Shown: positions 10,337-31,107, counted from the first letter of the stretch. The stretch is 64,000 bases of DNA from Verrucomicrobia bacterium S94 (GCA_004299845.1 CP036201.1:248001-312000); one strand, 5' to 3'. A program made the numbers and translations. The notes: generated by a model from the sequence alone, not told the origin.

Positions 10337-10759
10337 TTAATGGAGCGCTTCTCCCGCTCGCATATCAGCAGGAGACAACCGCTTCTTTTGATCGAACCGT
10401 CGTTTGTATTCCTCAACATCCCAGAGCCACGCTTCTTCAATCTCGTATTGGGTGTTGTAAAGAACCCAGATCAGGTAATCCCATTCGTAGTTGCTGGCTT
10501 TGCCTACCAATGTCACCTTTGATCCCGGTTTGCCACTGGGACGATTCGCTTTCACCTGATATCTCTTCCCGTCATGCACAAAATCACTTCCTCTAGAAAC
10601 AGCGGTTTTGTCCTGCATATAAGCGGAATAATCTGCATCTGAGCATCCAACCAGCATCGCCGCATCATATTCAGACACGGTTGAAGTGATTGCTGGCGCG
10701 ACCCCGTAGCGTTTTTGCCATTCCAAAGCAGTTGCAACTAATTGTTCGCGAAGTTCCAT
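10337..10759 (-). CDS. Leftward accessory protein, possibly nuclease-like
   Basis: This 140-residue protein on the opposite strand interrupts the tail operon. I chose the ATG at 10759 because GGAG lies eight bases upstream; the frame is open further upstream without such a site. The centre reads DFVHDGKRYQVKANRPSGKPG, which could be the D...(E/Q)xK strand of a PD-(D/E)xK nuclease fold. It is followed by WDYLIWVLYN and EEAWLWDVEEYK. Similar short proteins occur as phage or plasmid cargo. No family is named with certainty. It ends convergent with the gpX gene, and the next tail block starts behind it with its own promoter-like element. Confidence 0.6.
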   Translation of the reverse strand: MELREQLVATALEWQKRYGVAPAITSTVSEYDAAMLVGCSDADYSAYMQDKTAVSRGSDFVHDGKRYQVKANRPSGKPGSKVTLVGKASNYEWDYLIWVLYNTQYEIEEAWLWDVEEYKRRFDQKKRLSPADMRAGEALH

Positions 10760-10842
10760 CCCTACATCTCCGTTTGTTGAAAGCAAAGCGGAGCTTATGA
10801 AATAACGCATTTCTTTTCAATGTTCACCAGCCCGAGATTGTA

Positions 10843-22953: not shown

Positions 22954-25900
22954 ATGAGTATCTCAAGAGAAACTTTCGACCCCACTAAAAATTATAAGCG
23001 AATTCGCTACCATCAGGACCGGGATCTGCTCGATTCGGAACTGAATGAACAACAAGAGCTGATCAACCTCGAGCGCCGCAAGATTGCCGACATCCTCTTT
23101 AAGGAGGGGTCGATTCTGAGCGGGCTAAATGTGACTGTGCAGGCCAACGAGCTGATTCTCACTCAGGGCATGATCTATATCGACGGCCATGTGGAAGCAA
23201 TCAATGGAGGCACACTGACCTTTGATCCGGGTACCATAGACGGATCAGATTACGTTTATGCCGAACTGCTCAAGTATAACTATGGCTACACACAGGATGC
23301 CGCTCTGATTAATCCGGCGACCGGCGAACCGACAGCAGAGCGCGAAAAATGGGTGCTGGCCCTGAAGGCAACCGACACGTCCGGCCAGACGCTGCCCAAC
23401 AATGTGACCGAGCGGAAGGTGGTGCCAATCTATAAGTTTGACCGCGCCAAGGGCGATGTAACAGCCACAGTGCAGGAAAAATCCAATCTCTTCCTGCAGG
23501 ATCTGCTGGGCACGCTGCCCGGCAGCCGGATTACCGTTTCTTCCATCACCGAAGACCAGCTCTCTTTTGCCGCTGCAGAAGGATTGAACTCGCTCCTGCA
23601 AAACCTGGCGGAGCGTACCTTCGATCAGGCCGGGAGCTATCTGGTCGACGGCTTCGACAGTTTCCTCGGTGCATTGGATGAAAACGATGTGGAGGTAATT
23701 ACCAACGCGGGCCGCGCCTATATTCAGGGTTTTCGGCATCAGCGAGATCTGCCGACCTCCACGCCGGTTCCGAAATCGGTCGCCATCAAATCGGTGCGCG
23801 GTGAACAAAAAACCTACAACATCAGCCAGCGGCAGTATCCGGTAAACTCCACCCCGCTCAAAGAGACGACGCAGGTGGAAGCCATCGTGGAGATGACCGC
23901 CAATGTGACCCGTGGTTCGGTTGGCGGAGGTGAAGACCTGCTCGATCCCAATCCGGTGGTTGATATTCTGGAAGTCAGCCAAGGTGCATCCATCTTTCAG
24001 GAAGGTGTGGATTGGCAGCAGTCCGGCAATCAGGTCGACTGGATCGGCTCTGGCAATGAACCAGCCATCGGCACCACCTATACCGTGCGCTGGACCTACA
24101 CCAAGCAGATGATCAAAGGCGAAGATTATGTGGACGGGGGCTGGTTCGGCCTGAATGCTCATCCGGCGGCGGGAACGTATCATTACATTGTGACTGTATT
24201 CGATGGCTCCGGCGAAACGGCCTTTGATGCCGGGCGCGTACTTTCCCGGATGACGGAGGCCGGTGAGCTGAACAGCCTGTCATGGCTTCCGGTGAATGGA
24301 GCCAGCGGCTACAGAGTCTATCGGGCCACGATCAATGGTTCGCGTACTAGCTTTGAACGGATTAAAGAACTGGGAAGCGAAGCGGTTACCTACATCGATG
24401 ACGGTGTGGATGAAGCTTCCGGCGTTAATCCTCCGTCGGCCAATACGGCGGCGGTTTCCATGTCTTCCTCTCAGATTGAACTGGGTAACCTCAACGTCGT
24501 CAACTTTGGGCGCGGCGCTTTAGGCGAGCAGCCGGTCAACGGATCGAACTGCAGTGTTGATTACGACTACTACCTCGGGCGCAAAGACATCATCTACGCC
24601 ACCAGCCGTGAAATCAAACGCCTCGAAGGCGCACCGGCGGACTTCCCGAAACTGCCGATTGTCCCGGAGAACACGCTCGGATTGTGCAGCATCGACTGCC
24701 CGCCGAATTCGACAATCATGACCATTCGCAACTTCGGCCTGACCCGTATCACCATGGATCAGATCCACGAAATCATCAAAGATGTGGAGGATCTGAAATA
24801 CAACGATGCGCAGTATCAGATGAATAACGAGCTGCAGAACCGCGATGCGCAGTCGAAAAAGGGAATCTACTCGGACGACTTTTCCAATACCGCGCAGTCG
24901 GATATTTATCACGCCGACTGGGATGCCCGGGTGAATGGCCTTGAAAAGTTCGCCTCTCCGGATCGAACGGCGGTTTCCGTCCCGCTTGAAGTGGATGAAG
25001 GCAACAGCGATGCCGAATTCTTCGGCAGCCTCGCGCTCCTGCCCGGAACGGAAGAAGTGCTGCTGGATCAGAGCGATTGGTCGGAGGAGCGCAACATTAA
25101 CCCGTATGCGGTATTCGACAAACCGCCCGCCATGCTGCAGGTCACGCCGAACCTCGGTCGTCGCGGCCAGACCGGCGTTGCGGTGACCGGCATCAACTTC
25201 ACGCCAAGCGGAACCGGCATTGTACTGCGGTGTGACGGACGGATCGTCGCCAGCAACCTGACCAGCGATGATGCCGGGCGCGTATCCGCATCCTTCACGA
25301 TTCCGACGGAAACCCGCAACGGGAACCGGATCGTGGAAATGACGGACGGCCAGTACACCGCCCGCACCAGCCTGCAGGTGAACGATCCGCTGGTGATCAC
25401 CCGTATTCAGCGTTTCATTCAAACCAACATCATCACCCGTATTGTCCGTGTTCCGGTGGTGCGGACGGTCTGGCGAACCCGCACGATCTTTGTGCGGCGC
25501 GATCCGTTGGCGCAGACCTTCAGCTTCACGGAAAACCGGGTGTTGTCGGCGATAGGCATTCAGTTCACGGAGCGTGACCCGTCTATTCCGGTTACGGTAC
25601 AGATTCGCGGCGTTACCACGGGATTGCCGAACGACACCATCTTTGCCGAAAAGGTGATAGCTCCGGTGGAAATCAATCTCGGTGGCGAAACCAAAATCGC
25701 CTTCGATGATCCGTTCTATGCGGAAGCCAATACCAGCTATGCGGTCGTCCTGCTGACCAACAGCACGAACTACAAGGTGCGTACCGCCACTCTCGGAAAA
25801 ACCGGTCGCTCGGGCATCATTACTCGTCAGAGCTATGCGGAAGGTGTGCTGTTGGAAAGCTCTAATGCCGAAACCTGGACTCCACTCAATGGTTCCGACC

Positions 25901-26514
25901 TCACGCTGAAGCTCTATGGTTATGAGTTCGAGAATGACGGCACAATTCAGTTTCAGCCGATCAACGGTGTGCAGTTCTCCGATCTGAATATTGATGAATA
26001 TTCCGCCATCCCGGAAGGCACCAACCTTGTGTGGGAATATTCCACCGATGGCGGCCAGACGTGGGACGCGGTTGTTCCGGCAGAAGAGGAACGGTTGCCC
26101 AACCTGACGGACAGCGTATTGGTTCGGATTCGGTTCAGTTCCGGTATGAACAACGATACGCCAGCGCTCAACTTCCGCGATGTTAACCTGATCGGTTATC
26201 TCAACAAAACGACCGGCGTTTACCTGACCCGCGAGAACGAACTGACGCAGGGAGTGGAGTCGACGAAGGTGTATGCCCAAATGGATATCCCAAGCGGCAC
26301 CAGTGTTCTGTGGTTCACCTCCAATGATGGCGGCGAAACATGGGAAGCTATGGCCATCGACGATACCCGGCCTATCGATGAAAACTGGACGGAATACACG
26401 CTGATCAGAACCTTCACCGATCCAGCGGGAACTAAAGTTCGCTATAAGGCAGAGCTAACTGGATCCGCGTTGGCTTATCCGAGGATTCACACCCTCGGCG
26501 CAACATTGAGCTAA
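22954..26514 (+). CDS. Large DUF4815-type tail fibre / host-specificity protein
   Basis: This 1186-residue protein opens with ETFDPTKNYKRIRYHQDRDLLDSELNEQQ, typical of DUF4815 fibre proteins. Next comes a beta-rich body with a fibronectin-like part around residues 400-510 (AAGTYHYIVTVFDGSG, SGYRVYRATING). An IPT/TIG-like domain follows at about 725-805 (PNLGRRGQTGVAVTGINFTP). Then comes a strange Arg/Ile/Val segment near 815-845, a DPLAQTFSF module, and paired C-terminal repeats with STDGGQTWDAV and SNDGGETWEAM. It is the likely receptor-binding fibre. Confidence 0.75.
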   Translation: MSISRETFDPTKNYKRIRYHQDRDLLDSELNEQQELINLERRKIADILFKEGSILSGLNVTVQANELILTQGMIYIDGHVEAINGGTLTFDPGTIDGSDYVYAELLKYNYGYTQDAALINPATGEPTAEREKWVLALKATDTSGQTLPNNVTERKVVPIYKFDRAKGDVTATVQEKSNLFLQDLLGTLPGSRITVSSITEDQLSFAAAEGLNSLLQNLAERTFDQAGSYLVDGFDSFLGALDENDVEVITNAGRAYIQGFRHQRDLPTSTPVPKSVAIKSVRGEQKTYNISQRQYPVNSTPLKETTQVEAIVEMTANVTRGSVGGGEDLLDPNPVVDILEVSQGASIFQEGVDWQQSGNQVDWIGSGNEPAIGTTYTVRWTYTKQMIKGEDYVDGGWFGLNAHPAAGTYHYIVTVFDGSGETAFDAGRVLSRMTEAGELNSLSWLPVNGASGYRVYRATINGSRTSFERIKELGSEAVTYIDDGVDEASGVNPPSANTAAVSMSSSQIELGNLNVVNFGRGALGEQPVNGSNCSVDYDYYLGRKDIIYATSREIKRLEGAPADFPKLPIVPENTLGLCSIDCPPNSTIMTIRNFGLTRITMDQIHEIIKDVEDLKYNDAQYQMNNELQNRDAQSKKGIYSDDFSNTAQSDIYHADWDARVNGLEKFASPDRTAVSVPLEVDEGNSDAEFFGSLALLPGTEEVLLDQSDWSEERNINPYAVFDKPPAMLQVTPNLGRRGQTGVAVTGINFTPSGTGIVLRCDGRIVASNLTSDDAGRVSASFTIPTETRNGNRIVEMTDGQYTARTSLQVNDPLVITRIQRFIQTNIITRIVRVPVVRTVWRTRTIFVRRDPLAQTFSFTENRVLSAIGIQFTERDPSIPVTVQIRGVTTGLPNDTIFAEKVIAPVEINLGGETKIAFDDPFYAEANTSYAVVLLTNSTNYKVRTATLGKTGRSGIITRQSYAEGVLLESSNAETWTPLNGSDLTLKLYGYEFENDGTIQFQPINGVQFSDLNIDEYSAIPEGTNLVWEYSTDGGQTWDAVVPAEEERLPNLTDSVLVRIRFSSGMNNDTPALNFRDVNLIGYLNKTTGVYLTRENELTQGVESTKVYAQMDIPSGTSVLWFTSNDGGETWEAMAIDDTRPIDENWTEYTLIRTFTDPAGTKVRYKAELTGSALAYPRIHTLGATLS

Positions 26515-26527
26515 TGGAGGGCGCGAG

Positions 26528-26773
26528 ATGATTGTTCAACGCCGGGGCGGGATGACCGAGTTCATCCCGTCTCCACAGGAAAAACGGGAAGGTTTGGTCC
26601 GAGATCACTCCTTCAATCTGATCGAGAACCTGCACAATCGGCTGCAGCGATTAGAAGCTGAACTGGACTTTCCGTTTGAAGAAGCCGAAGCCTGCTCCGC
26701 CTTTCTCGAAAAGCTGAAGCAGGATGAATCCCGCAACATCGCCATCCATAACGAGCTGCTATCGAAAGAGTAG
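26528..26773 (+). CDS. Small coiled-coil protein at the end of the fibre operon
   Basis: This 81-residue acidic helical protein (LIENLHNRLQRLEAELDFPFEEAEACSAFLEKL) is encoded with GGAGG upstream. It is the last tail-operon gene, ending eight bases before a terminator hairpin. The place suggests a fibre chaperone or trimerisation helper. No family recognised. Confidence 0.5.
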   Translation: MIVQRRGGMTEFIPSPQEKREGLVRDHSFNLIENLHNRLQRLEAELDFPFEEAEACSAFLEKLKQDESRNIAIHNELLSKE

Positions 26774-26781
26774 CCATGCTT

Positions 26782-26824
26782 ACCCGCTAACATATTTAAT
26801 CCCAATGTGTTAGCGGGTTCTTTT
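26782..26824 (+). terminator. Intrinsic terminator ending the tail module
   Basis: An 11-bp perfect stem (26782-26792 with 26808-26818) with a 15-base loop is followed by TCTTTT. It separates the structural operon from the amidoligase block. Confidence 0.85.
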
Positions 26825-26933: not shown

Positions 26934-27875
26934 ATGGATTTGAGAGACCTTAGATTCGGGATTGAGATTGAAACCGTAAAACGAACCCGCGAGCAGATCG
27001 CTCGGGCAGTACACTCGGTGGTCGGCGGCACCGTCCGACACGTCGGTTATCCATCCTGCTACGACCCATGGGAAGTGAAAGACCTGCGGGGCCGTAAATG
27101 GAAAATCGTCAACGATGCATCCCTTTCCGGTGTTCCCAGCCACCTGCGGGCGGAGCTGGTCAGTCCGGTTCTGACCTACGACGACATTCCCCAGTTTCAG
27201 GAGGTGGTTCGGGCCGTCCGCCGAGCTGGCGGTCGGGTGAATACGCAGTGCGGCATCCACATCCATATCGATGCGGAACCGTTTGATGGCCGAAAACTGG
27301 GCAACCTCGCCAAGATGGTCTACAAGCAAGAACCGCTGATTCTTCACGCGCTCGGCATCAGCTCCAATCGCCTTAGCCAATATACCCGTCCGGTCTGCGA
27401 CGACCTGATCCGCAGTATTGAACAGCACCGGCCAACCACCAAAGAGGAACTAAACCGCATCTGGTACGGCTACCACAACAGCCAGCCGCAACACTATGAC
27501 CGAACCCGCTATCGAGGCCTCAATCTCCACAATGTTTGGTATCGCGGCACAGTTGAATTCCGCTGGTTCGAGTCCACGCTCCACGCCGGAAAGATCAAAG
27601 CCTACCTGCAGTTTTGCTTGGGCATCGCTGCCAAGGCCCTCAACGCCCGATCAGCATCCAGCCGAAAACGGGACTTCAATATTCAGAGTGCGAAATATGA
27701 CTTTCGCGTCTTCCTGCTCCACCTCGGCCTGATCGGTGACGAATTTAAAACCGCCCGCCTGCACCTGATGAAAAACATGCCCGGCGATGCCGCTTTCAAA
27801 CGTGGGCGACCACAGCCCACAGAAACCACAACCCAACCCACAGAGGCCGGATCAACATCCGGCCTCTCTGTTTAA
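26934..27875 (+). CDS. Amidoligase (GCS-like COOH-NH2 ligase)
   Basis: This 313-residue protein of the amidoligase family related to gamma-glutamylcysteine synthetases has three motifs. These are FGIEIETVK at the N-terminus (metal/ATP site), [12 protein letters not shown] near residue 105, and [17 protein letters not shown] near residue 205. Members make an amide bond between a carboxylate and an amine with ATP. The ATG at 26934 has GGAGG eight bases upstream, while the upstream extension to 26862 is not needed. It heads a four-gene block with an amidotransferase and a gamma-glutamylcyclotransferase. The last 30 residues are Thr/Pro/Gln-rich. Substrate unknown. Confidence 0.85.
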
Positions 27876-27889
27876 CAGGAGGAAACACC

Positions 27890-28411
27890 ATGAAGATAAA
27901 GATCCATTCCATGGCTTTCGACGGGAAGCCGATCATCGACGACGGCAGAACCGTGCAGGCTCCGACCTGCCTCGAGGTCGCCGAACAGATGCACCATCAA
28001 ACGCCGTTCACCACCGATCTGTCGCTGAGAGAATACCAGCTCAGGGTGCTTGCCAAAATCGAAGGCGACAACGCGAAGCCTCTACCGGACGATCCCGAGC
28101 AGGCCGCCGCTGAATTTTTCACCCGAATGGCGCAGCACGGCTGGGTGGAATTCCTGCCGGATGAGGACGCCATCGAGTCTCTGTATCCCGAGCTGTTTCA
28201 GGAGGCCGTGGAGACGGTGCGCGATTCCGGACGCACCAACATGTTCGACATTCCCGTGGCCATCGACCTGATCCGCGAGATGGGCTACCCCGAGGTGGCC
28301 CTCTGGATCACCGGCCACCTTGTGGAATATGTGGAGTTCATCATTGGGGAGCCGAAAATCTTCTTCCCTCAAACCGGCAACGGGAGCGACACACCATGTG
28401 CGGACAAGTAG
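27890..28411 (+). CDS. Unknown protein of the amidoligase block
   Basis: This 173-residue acidic protein is encoded 14 bases after the amidoligase and overlaps the amidotransferase by 16 bases, so it is part of the same unit. Visible segments include SLREYQLRVLAKIEGDNAKPLP, GWVEFLPDEDAIESLYPELF and LIREMGYPEVALWI. It is largely helical with no signal peptide or membrane helix. It could be a substrate carrier, adaptor or regulator of the ligase. I do not recognise it. Confidence 0.6.
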   Translation: MKIKIHSMAFDGKPIIDDGRTVQAPTCLEVAEQMHHQTPFTTDLSLREYQLRVLAKIEGDNAKPLPDDPEQAAAEFFTRMAQHGWVEFLPDEDAIESLYPELFQEAVETVRDSGRTNMFDIPVAIDLIREMGYPEVALWITGHLVEYVEFIIGEPKIFFPQTGNGSDTPCADK

Positions 28412-29193
28412 GCATCATCTTTGGGAAGAAGCGCCGCCGGATCGCCGAGCGCGAATATTTGAACGAGGTATTCCGACGCATGTTGCTCAGCTCCGAGCGG
28501 CGCGGTCCGCATGCCTCCGGTGTCGCACTGCTTCAGACCGACGGCGACTTCCGGCTCTTCAAACGGCCATGGCGAGCGCATCGGGCCGTTCATGATCCGG
28601 CCTTCGGCGAAGTGTTAGACGAGGTGAATAATCGCACCACCGTCCTGATGGGCCACACCCGCTGGCGCACTCGGGGCAGTGAGTCCAACAGCCGCAACAA
28701 TCACCCCATTCGGGCGGGAAGCATCATCGGAACCCACAACGGCACCATCTACAACGCCGACCAGCTGTTCTGCCGATTCCAACTGCCGCGTTATGCCGAG
28801 GTCGACAGCGAGCTGATTTTCCGATTGGCCGACTGCTTTGACTCAGAGCGTGGGTGGAACGATGTAGGCTTCCGCAAAGCCCTGCGCCGCTGTCGCGGGC
28901 AAATGAGCGCCGTGTTGGCCTCACGGTTCCGCCCCGGAACCATTACCGTACTCAAAGGGAACAAGCCGCTCACGTTGCGCTACAGCCGCAAGTGTCGGGC
29001 GGTGCTCTACGCCTCCGAGGCCGAGTTCATTGATTCTGCGCTCGATGACCGACGAGGCTGGCAGGATCTGGAAATTCCGCCGCTCACCATGCTGAGCTTC
29101 AATCATGAAAATCAGCAGGAGTGGGAGCGGCAGCCCTTCGAATTCATTTGTCAGGAACGAAAAGGAACATTACCTCAAGGAGTGATCGCATGA
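28396..29193 (+). CDS. Class II glutamine amidotransferase
   Basis: This 265-residue Ntn-type GATase has MCGQVGIIFG at the start, so Cys2 becomes the nucleophile after Met removal. Other landmarks are SSERRGPHASGVA, GHTRWRT (R89), GTHNGTIYN (N115, G116) and EVDSELIF (D137). It has no synthetase domain, so ammonia or the transferred group must be used by a partner, most simply the amidoligase two genes upstream. It overlaps genes on both sides, indicating tight co-expression. Confidence 0.88.
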   Translation: MCGQVGIIFGKKRRRIAEREYLNEVFRRMLLSSERRGPHASGVALLQTDGDFRLFKRPWRAHRAVHDPAFGEVLDEVNNRTTVLMGHTRWRTRGSESNSRNNHPIRAGSIIGTHNGTIYNADQLFCRFQLPRYAEVDSELIFRLADCFDSERGWNDVGFRKALRRCRGQMSAVLASRFRPGTITVLKGNKPLTLRYSRKCRAVLYASEAEFIDSALDDRRGWQDLEIPPLTMLSFNHENQQEWERQPFEFICQERKGTLPQGVIA

Positions 29194-29687
29194 ATACAAA
29201 CCAACAGCTACGCCTATTTGTTTACGGAACCCTCAAACGCGGATACTGGAACCATGATCGGTTCTGCTCGCAGGCCGTCAGCATAGAACCCGCCACCACT
29301 TGGGGAAGGCTGTATCATCTGCCAGCCGGATTTCCCGCTCTGAAAATTCCTGACGGTTGTATTCTTGCACACGGAACCACCGATCCATTGGCCGATACTC
29401 AAATACTGAACAACATCAAATTACCGGAAACCGCCATGCAACGTCCGGATGGCGATTGGGATCTCATCCATGGCGAACTGATGACCTTTAACGAACCCGG
29501 CATTAATTTGCCGCCCATTGACCGACTGGAAGGATTCAATCCCCATGGGCACAGCATGTATAGAAGAGTTTTGGTGGCGATTAAAGAAAGGGATCGAATT
29601 TGTGCTGTGTGGGGTTATCAATACGTTCTTGATCACAAAGGCGTACGACTGGTCTCAGGAGACTGGACAGGGTTAGACATCGGCTAA
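29190..29687 (+). CDS. Gamma-glutamylcyclotransferase (AIG2-like)
   Basis: This 165-residue GGCT/AIG2-like enzyme has LFVYGTLKRGYWNHD at residues 9-23, the substrate-cradle motif. Further on it has IHGELMTFN, whose Glu is the likely catalytic residue, and IDRLEGFNPHGHSMYRRVLV. It cleaves gamma-glutamyl amides to release 5-oxoproline and an amine. The ATG at 29190 overlaps the amidotransferase stop. Together with the ligase and GATase it suggests a build-and-trim cycle on gamma-glutamyl-type amides. Confidence 0.85.
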   Translation: MNTNQQLRLFVYGTLKRGYWNHDRFCSQAVSIEPATTWGRLYHLPAGFPALKIPDGCILAHGTTDPLADTQILNNIKLPETAMQRPDGDWDLIHGELMTFNEPGINLPPIDRLEGFNPHGHSMYRRVLVAIKERDRICAVWGYQYVLDHKGVRLVSGDWTGLDIG

Positions 29688-29811: not shown

Positions 29812-29994
29812 ATGGAAGACCGATGGTTATCTGTGGATGAGATTGGAGACTATCTCGGGGTTAAACGAGATACGGTTTATAAATGGATTGCGGACAAAAG
29901 TATGCCCGCCCACCGGATCGGTCGCCTGTGGAAGTTTAAAAAAGATGAAGTGGATGATTGGATTCGATCAGGTGGTGCAGGCACCGATCAATAA
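29812..29994 (+). CDS. Excisionase-family helix-turn-helix protein
   Basis: This 60-residue protein has WLSVDEIGDYLGVKRDTVYKWI and MPAHRIGRLWKFKKDEVDDWI, the standard MerR-like/excisionase HTH_17 domain. The ATG at 29812 has GGAG six bases upstream. Such proteins act as recombination directionality factors, or as DNA-binding parts of defence or toxin-antitoxin genes. It may have belonged to the prophage end or to the truncated gene that follows. Confidence 0.85.
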   Translation: MEDRWLSVDEIGDYLGVKRDTVYKWIADKSMPAHRIGRLWKFKKDEVDDWIRSGGAGTDQ

Positions 29995-30037: not shown

Positions 30038-30076
30038 ATGAAACAAAAACAACGAGCAATAGAAGTAATAGTATGA
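30038..30076 (+). CDS. 12-codon leader or remnant ORF
   Basis: ATG at 30038 has AAGG seven bases upstream and encodes MKQKQRAIEVIV before a TGA that overlaps the ATG of the next gene (ATGA). It may serve translational coupling or be a remnant of a longer gene. Support is limited to spacing. Confidence 0.3.
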   Translation: MKQKQRAIEVIV

Positions 30077-31107
30077 GTATTGCATCAGGAACGATTCAAT
30101 ACGAATTAGGGACGGAACCAGTGACTGGTTGCGGCCTGACCTATACTTCCGCCGAATTAGACACGGCTCTTTTAGGCCCCGTGTCAGAAGTTGTTTTTGA
30201 TGATTCAGGGTTCGCAGAGATCTCGACTCTTTTGGCAGGCCTTGCTGAAACTGATTTTCACAAGAGTGAAGTTGAACGTATTTTATCGAACACCAAGCCT
30301 CCAGAAGACTGGCGCGTCGGCGAGGCATTGGCAGAATCTTATTTGACCCACCAAAAAAACTGCTTTTTTCCATGGCCGGATGGACGAGATGAACGAAAGA
30401 CTGGTTCTAGTCTGCCTGGAGCTGATTTAGTTGGATTCCAATCAAACGGCACCGATGATTTTTTTGCATTTGGAGAAGTGAAAACCTCAACCGAGAATAA
30501 ATATCCCCCTGGAGCCATGCATGGTCGTACTGGCTTAAAGCAGCAACTTGAAGACCTGAAGGATGATGTAAAAATCAGAGATGACCTTTTCAGATATCTT
30601 GGGTTCCGAGCGCAAAAATCGTCATGGGAAGATCGTTTTATTTCCCATGCCATTCAATCCGGCTGCGACCGAAAGGAGCTATACCGAAGCATCCGGCAAT
30701 GGGCGGTCGACATAACCGTTGAACCTGCCTTGCTGGAAACCATTGACAAGGCTGCCTCCGAACCGCCTGCAGATTATGTCAACCAGCAGGGATGGGTGTT
30801 GATCGCTTTTCAAAACGCCCTGTACCAACTGCTTCATGCACCAAGCCTTGAGGCCGGAGTGGTCGATACCGTCATGGGCGGAGGCGACACCGATACGAAT
30901 GCCGCCATTTGCGGGGCGCTATTAGGCGCTGTGTGCGGTCGGGAGGAGATTCCAGCCCAATGGCTCGATTGCCTGCAAAACTGCCGCCCAGAGGCCGGAA
31001 AGCCAAACGTCCGGCATCCCCGCCCGAAATGCTTCTGGCCCGTGGATGCGCTTGAGCTGGCTCAGGGCTTAATTGACTGCGCCAGACTTGCTCCCCGCAA
31101 TAGCTGA
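30073..31107 (+). pseudogene. Chimeric ORF: nuclease-like N-terminus fused to ADP-ribosylglycohydrolase C-terminus
   Basis: This 344-residue ORF seems to join two genes. Residues 1-190 contain GADLVGF and then FAFGEVKTS, the D...ExK arrangement of a PD-(D/E)xK nuclease. The last 130 residues are the C-terminal part of an ADP-ribosylglycohydrolase: GWVLIAFQNALYQLLHA and VMGGGDTDTNAAICGALLGA. The N-terminal half of the hydrolase, with its first metal-binding motif, is missing. The join lies near 30,630-30,670, where GC content also rises. Start at 30073 is supported only by overlap with the short upstream ORF; 30031 is possible. Probably a recombination product and possibly non-functional, but the frame is intact. 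Confidence 0.65.

Follow-up and report, generated by a model that had tools for sequence, protein, structure and literature searches.

A putative amide-forming and amide-editing cassette in a prophage of Verrucomicrobia bacterium S94 and its relatives on other mobile elements

The comparative genomic study of Iyer et al. (2009), to which a preliminary description of the present locus had referred, is indeed cited for amidoligase modules of the phiEco32 type and for their predicted role in modifying the cell wall against superinfection (PMC10580990; PMC11253131; PMC11318856). In the LUZ24-like phages (UFV-P2, tf, PaP3, U17), an amidoligase (PF12224), a class II amidotransferase (PF13522) and an AIG2-type gamma-glutamylcyclotransferase (GGCT, PF06094) are found within one phage as well, and have been called, following Iyer et al. 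(2009), a putative peptidoglycan-modification module (PMC3890496, ORFs 21-29; PMC11945000), such modification by the LUZ24/phiEco32 module being a prediction of the literature only. The same combination of enzymes has been reported for Phage-ZRK32, where it has been argued to serve auxiliary nitrogen metabolism (PMC10945688). The enzyme set as such had therefore already been published (PMC3890496; PMC11945000; PMC10945688), and the locus is not the undescribed system that it was at first taken for. Annotated genes of Vibrio phage 1.293.O comprise the combination too, and those of Arthrobacter phage Kovu encode GGCT, amidoligase and amidotransferase consecutively; in Kovu, however, the cyclotransferase comes first and not last, the ligase is only about 27% identical to the one described here, and the N-terminal domain of the partner protein introduced below finds no match. 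A further relative is the Firmicutes phage cassette of Terrisporobacter TPDSL_ph1, 'Ca. Heliusvirales', C. clostridioforme prophages and C. difficile Tn6164, which has a homologous ligase (35-45% identical), a GGCT and in many cases a stand-alone DUF5049 gene, but differs in having two amidoligases and DUF4314, no amidotransferase, and DNA methyltransferases and a terminase alongside. In host pathways with known substrates, a ligase is paired with a gamma-glutamyl hydrolase or cyclotransferase or with a glutaminase, as in EgtA/EgtC, BtrJ/BtrG and MurT/GatD; the cassette resembles these at the level of fold or reaction only.

The locus lies in positions 248001-312000 of the chromosome of the 4.1 Mb genome, and this stretch of 64,000 nucleotides, analyzed as a whole, is termed the window in the following. 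The cassette has been located inside a contractile-tailed prophage, at the right end of its late region; the prophage genes include a serine recombinase near 217 kb, a RecD2-type helicase, a MuF-type head protein and tail genes. The features concerned are, in window coordinates:

22954-26514, + strand: DUF4815 tail fibre-like protein, directly upstream of orf81 and the cassette (PF16075, 1.2e-99)
26528-26773, + strand: orf81, a small gene that follows the fibre gene, syntenic in relatives; its end closes the tail operon
26782-26818, + strand: intrinsic terminator with a 15-bp stem, between tail operon and ligase (folding z -6.9)
26934-27875, + strand: Amidoligase_2 (PF12224) gene, 313 aa, predicted GS-fold carboxylate-amine ligase, YbdK/GCS2-like (Pfam 6.6e-65)
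27890-28411, + strand: partner protein, 173 aa, unnamed N-domain plus DUF5049
28396-29193, + strand: stand-alone class II (Ntn, Cys2) glutamine amidotransferase, 265 aa (GATase_6, 1e-20)
29190-29687, + strand: GGACT/AIG2-type gamma-glutamyl(amine) cyclotransferase, 165 aa (PF06094, 3.9e-16)
29812-29994, + strand: small HTH_17/excisionase-like gene, following the cassette in relatives also (PF12728, 7e-17)

An ATP-grasp ligase and, as a second carboxylate-amine ligase, a PF14395 protein also belong to the LUZ24/phiEco32 modules, whereas no ATP-grasp or COOH-NH2 ligase domain has been found in the four genes of the cassette or among the prophage genes scanned. A search of the whole genome for PF14395 gave no match either, although it did not register its controls. 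Those modules reside in the early regions of lytic phages, whereas the present cassette is prophage-borne, and it further differs from them by its single-domain amidotransferase and by the extra partner composed of N-domain and DUF5049. None of the four proteins matches a PADLOC model of a known or candidate anti-phage defence family, and NCBIfam together with PADLOC has yielded no closer assignment for them.

The four open reading frames between 26934 and 29687 overlap or nearly touch, as had been described: a gap of 14 nt separates ligase and partner, partner and amidotransferase overlap by 16 nt, and amidotransferase and GGACT share a 4-nt ATGA overlap. The ATG of the amidoligase is preceded by GGAGG, and a GTG start of a longer ORF from 26862 is the less likely alternative. 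All four genes are under purifying selection, with dN/dS values of 0.02-0.38 overall (ligase 0.02-0.10, partner 0.15-0.34, amidotransferase 0.11-0.20, cyclotransferase 0.07-0.38). Phage genes are mosaic, and this is all that speaks for four unrelated prophage genes having become neighbours by chance. The gene order has been recovered in many independent prophages; the identical order in such elements across phyla, the retained overlap of reading frames and the linkage of DUF5049 to the amidoligase in 9/9 cases refute chance adjacency. The combination is not confined to this genome and recurs in about nine phyla. Domain matches, intact motifs and the repeated order across prophages together uphold the view of a coherent amide-forming and -editing set that is kept as a unit.

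Regarding the enzymes, the Amidoligase_2 match of the ligase extends over positions 2-244 of the 245 of the profile and is thus full length. Its motifs ExE (E11/E13), HxH (H109/H111) and ExR (E208/R210) are intact and invariant in an alignment of 38 sequences, so that the loss of motifs that careful alignment might have revealed has not been seen. In the AF2 model of the ligase (pLDDT 94), the nearest folds are YbdK (1r8g, Z 13.8), 1tt4 (13.6) and plant glutamate-cysteine ligase (13.3), with Dop and glutamine synthetase below this group at Z about 11. By predicted fold, the protein may accordingly be placed as a GS-fold carboxylate-amine ligase in the YbdK/GCS2 branch, a fold being no proof of substrate; for members of this Amidoligase_2 branch, our literature search has found no demonstrated substrate. 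A fold resembling YbdK and gamma-glutamylcysteine ligases agrees with the gamma-glutamyl theme of GGACT, the constant partner of the ligase. The amidotransferase has the residues ascribed to it earlier, Cys2, R89, N115 (followed by G116) and D137, all of them conserved and together making up the class II glutamine site; the motifs MCGQVG, HTRWRT, HNGTI and EVDSE are conserved, and comparison with the GlmS N-domain (1xff) gives 4.8e-8. In GGACT, the YGTLK loop and the catalytic Glu of 'DRLEG' are conserved.

The partner protein had been considered uncharacterised. This holds insofar as it is unstudied and its N-domain (residues 1 to ~95) is unnamed; it is nevertheless known in part, its C-terminal portion (residues ~98-154) corresponding to DUF5049 (PF16468, 2.9e-12, matched over residues 105-152 only, 46.7 bits vs a cut-off of 28.7). 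No recognisable catalytic motif is present in the partner, and the literature searched contained no paper on DUF5049. Among 388 genomes of the phylum, the DUF5049 matches above the cut-off adjoin an amidoligase in 9 of 9 cases, the ninth being represented by the end of a ligase at a contig edge. DUF5049 is fused to the N-domain here and forms a separate 60-aa gene in Firmicutes, and therefore provides a link of the Rosetta-stone type; some cassettes that are the same in all other respects (L003, L004, L006) lack it. The unnamed N-domain has been seen only alongside these ligases, all loci having been reached by way of the ligase or of genes next to it.

A structural reading of the partner would make the system one of peptide or protein modification, in which the N-domain, as a winged helix of the PqqD/RRE type, presents a substrate to the ligase and DUF5049 acts as a second docking part. 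The division into two domains is seen in an alignment of 35 relatives and in the AF2 model (pLDDT 82), the N-domain of which consists of two strands, three helices and one strand, compatible with such a fold. For the N-domain, hhalign has given a probability of 78-82% against PqqD and of 20-22% against MarR, and 60 column shuffles never exceeded 0.9%; the PqqD match spans about 40 residues only, however, and PqqD against MarR itself reaches 47%. Structurally, the N-domain comes closest to the glutamylation domain of TbtB, a match that would suit this reading but is insignificant (Z 2.6), whereas Foldseek with the partner model has returned nothing at E<=0.001, neither a PqqD-like structure nor a significant PDB match, and no precursor peptide has been identified. 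We thus take the PqqD/RRE likeness as a hint and not as an assignment, and regard peptide or protein modification as unlikely. Quite unlikely, too, is the more specific proposal that the partner, with an RRE-like N-domain and DUF5049, is a modular recognition subunit steering a glutaminase-fed, GGACT-reversed amidoligase onto a specific peptide or protein, for reversible amide tagging that prophages and conjugative elements would use against other mobile elements. The C-terminal residues CADK have been rejected as a Pup-like tag, as the same bases encode the amidotransferase start MCGQ; the conservation of these last four residues is explained by the overlap and needs no other cause, and so lends nothing to a peptide-based reading. 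A resemblance of DUF5049 to the GatB tail (Z 2.8 only) has been disregarded.

The place of the cassette after the fibre genes had been read as a hint of a role in modifying the envelope, the virion or a small metabolite of phage-host conflict; for a virion role this is a weak argument, because the terminator separates the two units and because relatives carry the genes beside a terminase or inside conjugation operons. None of 200 shuffled sequences folds as well as the terminator at 26782-26818. Since it divides the tail genes from the ligase, the cassette is probably a transcription unit of its own, cargo-like rather than part of the virion; orf81, for its part, probably does not belong to the cassette. 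A comparable terminator at the same place has not been found in most of the relatives checked, with one strong case in L060, so that this argument rests mainly on the window itself. Downstream of the cassette and the HTH gene, a gene at 30076-31107 combines an N-terminal match to the PADLOC candidate family PDC-M23A (1e-72) with a C-terminal ADP-ribosylglycohydrolase (3.9e-18). The sister elements L003 and L053 have a C5-methyltransferase match in the corresponding slot, which therefore looks like a variable cargo site.

Several further observations concern the prophage at large. At 1165-2420 of the window, a CsoR/RcnR-like regulator and a transporter of the cation-diffusion-facilitator type stand amid tail genes as an apparent metal-resistance insertion, and a 157-aa ORF at 10337-10810 on the - strand, opposite tail genes, appears to be another insertion. 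A 1519-aa Mu F-like head protein with extra domains (L021:10344-14900, chromosome 238344-242903) includes a weak HipA-like kinase stretch (0.0095), and in a 776-aa ORF (L021:15851-18178, chromosome 243851-246181) a D12 adenine methylase is apparently fused to a prohead serine protease (weak, 0.0023). The serine recombinase frame (L020, chromosome 216365-217941, - strand) occupies two ORFs that overlap, which may reflect a frameshift or two natural genes. A comparison of the chromosome at 215-219 kb with that at 277.6-282 kb has revealed no attL/attR direct repeats of >=12 bp.

Among named relatives, the closest with this cassette belongs to the Pontiellaceae (Kiritimatiellota), and its amidoligase is 99% identical. 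The order of fibre gene, orf81, ligase, partner, amidotransferase and cyclotransferase has been found again in IMG/VR contigs, and the same fibre-to-cyclotransferase order in Desulfofustis, Desulfosarcina, Desulfobulbus, Desulfocarbo, Ectothiorhodospira, Opitutaceae and others; loci of Lentisphaerota, Armatimonadota and Myxococcota have the cassette outside the fibre context. Altogether, prophages from about nine bacterial phyla share the four-gene order. This number of phyla may include binning errors, because several of the records are MAGs; isolates alone represent Thermodesulfobacteriota and Pseudomonadota. Cultured carriers include Desulfosarcina, Desulfofustis and Ectothiorhodospira and, for a related set, Myxococcus. 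Amidoligases are near-identical in L054-L060, L069 and L072, the hosts of which belong to different phyla (Desulfofustis, Ectothiorhodospira, an Opitutaceae MAG), which suggests that this phage type has recently been transferred across a wide taxonomic distance. At L073:1405-12886, the cassette is flanked on one side by a BrxL (BREX) gene and on the other by a serine recombinase accompanied by two N6 methylase genes, suggestive of a defence-island setting. In Streptococcus phage Javan630 (L207:1614-5180), SAM synthetase, adenine methylase, a short amidoligase and DUF5049 are encoded consecutively, the amidoligase being annotated merely as 'virulence-related protein'.

Composition has been counted in the 73 loci whose sequence continues for at least 2.5 kb beyond the ligase, of which 70 encode GGACT, 35 the N-domain of the partner, 24 the amidotransferase and 20 DUF5049. 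The constant pair is thus amidoligase and GGCT, and the amidotransferase is optional. In Myxococcota, the set is mostly composed of ligase, GGACT and a stand-alone N-domain of 80 aa. Clostridia have the ligase-GGACT pair within transfer operons of conjugative elements, with a TraG/VirB4-type ATPase on one side and an NlpC/P60 wall hydrolase on the other (e.g., L096:4128-8741). Firmicutes phages have two ligases, DUF4314, GGCT and DUF5049 next to DNA methyltransferases and terminase. Since ligase and cyclotransferase are constant and the amidotransferase may be lacking, the range of likely chemistry is reduced to amides of the gamma-glutamyl type, and ammonia would not always be the amine, as most cassettes are devoid of the amidotransferase.

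The same constancy has to be weighed in favor of a soluble gamma-glutamyl metabolism, in which the ligase would add a gamma-glutamyl group to an amine or amino acid and GGACT would release 5-oxoproline, the product being a small metabolite and not the wall. In the protecting-group cycle of butirosin biosynthesis, gamma-glutamyl is put on by BtrJ and removed as 5-oxoproline by BtrG. The pair found in 70/73 loci and the proximity of the ligase fold to YbdK and gamma-glutamylcysteine ligases fit such a pathway, as does the nitrogen-metabolism claim for Phage-ZRK32 (PMC10945688). It leaves unexplained, however, why the pair persists on mobile elements and why the partner domains are retained, and no amine-producing or transport gene travels along in the loci examined; we consider it rather unlikely.

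The methyltransferase neighbours call for a comparison with DNA hypermodification, in which the ligase would amidate a base that bears a carboxyl group; in phage, CmoY, a ligase of the asparagine-synthetase type, acts in this way on 5-carboxymethylcytosine (PMC12783734). That phages are now known to amidate this base lends the idea some substance, and amidoligase genes adjoin C5-cytosine and N6/N4-methyltransferase genes in Firmicutes phages and SAM synthetase and adenine methyltransferase genes in a Streptococcus phage. Against this, the genome of the window contains no PF00145 C5-methyltransferase, and its sole CmoA-type gene is chromosomal and 2.7 Mb away. The Firmicutes C5-methyltransferases inspected retain the Asn of motif X and not the Arg of CmoX, CmoY belongs to a fold family different from the GS-fold of the ligase, and no methyltransferase has been seen beside the copies in conjugative elements. 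Hypermodification of DNA is accordingly very unlikely, and the features of its carboxymethylcytosine form (CmoA/CmoX/CmoY), namely a C5-methyltransferase carrying the Cx-SAM Arg, a phage-borne CmoA and a ligase of the AMP-forming kind, are missing from this genome, for which that form has been rejected.

With a probability of roughly 0.4, we favor reading the operon as a mobile and self-contained prophage cargo that forms and edits amides, as a variant of the phage module predicted by Iyer et al. (2009), and with a cell-wall peptide precursor as its likely target. Gene content, intact motifs, predicted folds, conservation, the transcription boundary ahead of the cassette and the link between DUF5049 and amidoligases have been shown; all catalytic steps, the role of the adaptor, the substrate and the biological purpose are those we infer as follows. 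Where the class II amidotransferase is present, its N-terminal Cys would hydrolyze glutamine to supply ammonia. The amidoligase would activate a carboxylate with ATP, most likely the gamma-carboxyl of glutamate or an equivalent carboxyl of a peptide, and couple it with this ammonia or with a different amine, giving an amide of the gamma-glutamyl type. The partner, with its N-domain and DUF5049, may act as an adaptor that binds ligase and substrate, and GGACT would remove or proofread gamma-glutamyl-amides via cyclisation. The most likely target would be a cytosolic precursor of the cell-wall peptide, the modification of which could render the envelope of the lysogen less accessible to competing elements. 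That the chemistry is one of amide formation and editing is likely, given the established biochemistry of the families; that the wall is the target and the exclusion of competitors the benefit is possible though doubtful. An envelope role would rest on the older prediction, which several papers express for related modules (PMC10580990; PMC11253131; PMC11318856; PMC11945000), and on gene neighbourhood, the Clostridia copies in conjugative elements adjoining the NlpC/P60 wall hydrolase. Against the wall speak the cassette genes beside DNA methyltransferases in Firmicutes phages, and a single wall target would need to be very general, as the hosts span Gram-negative phyla and Firmicutes.

As far as our tools show, what is new compared with the described modules is the reduced form, which lacks the ATP-grasp enzyme and has no second ligase, the partner protein, whose N-domain is unnamed, and the DUF5049-amidoligase linkage, the constant ligase-GGACT pair within conjugative elements, and the conservation of the cassette in prophages across about nine phyla. 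Amidoligase modules of phages have been predicted since 2009 to change cell walls, and we have found no paper that demonstrates their substrate. The present cassette is compact and conserved in cultured hosts of several phyla, and it gives DUF5049 a testable partner. If its role in the wall is true, it would represent a general device of superinfection or entry exclusion that is common to phages and conjugative elements.
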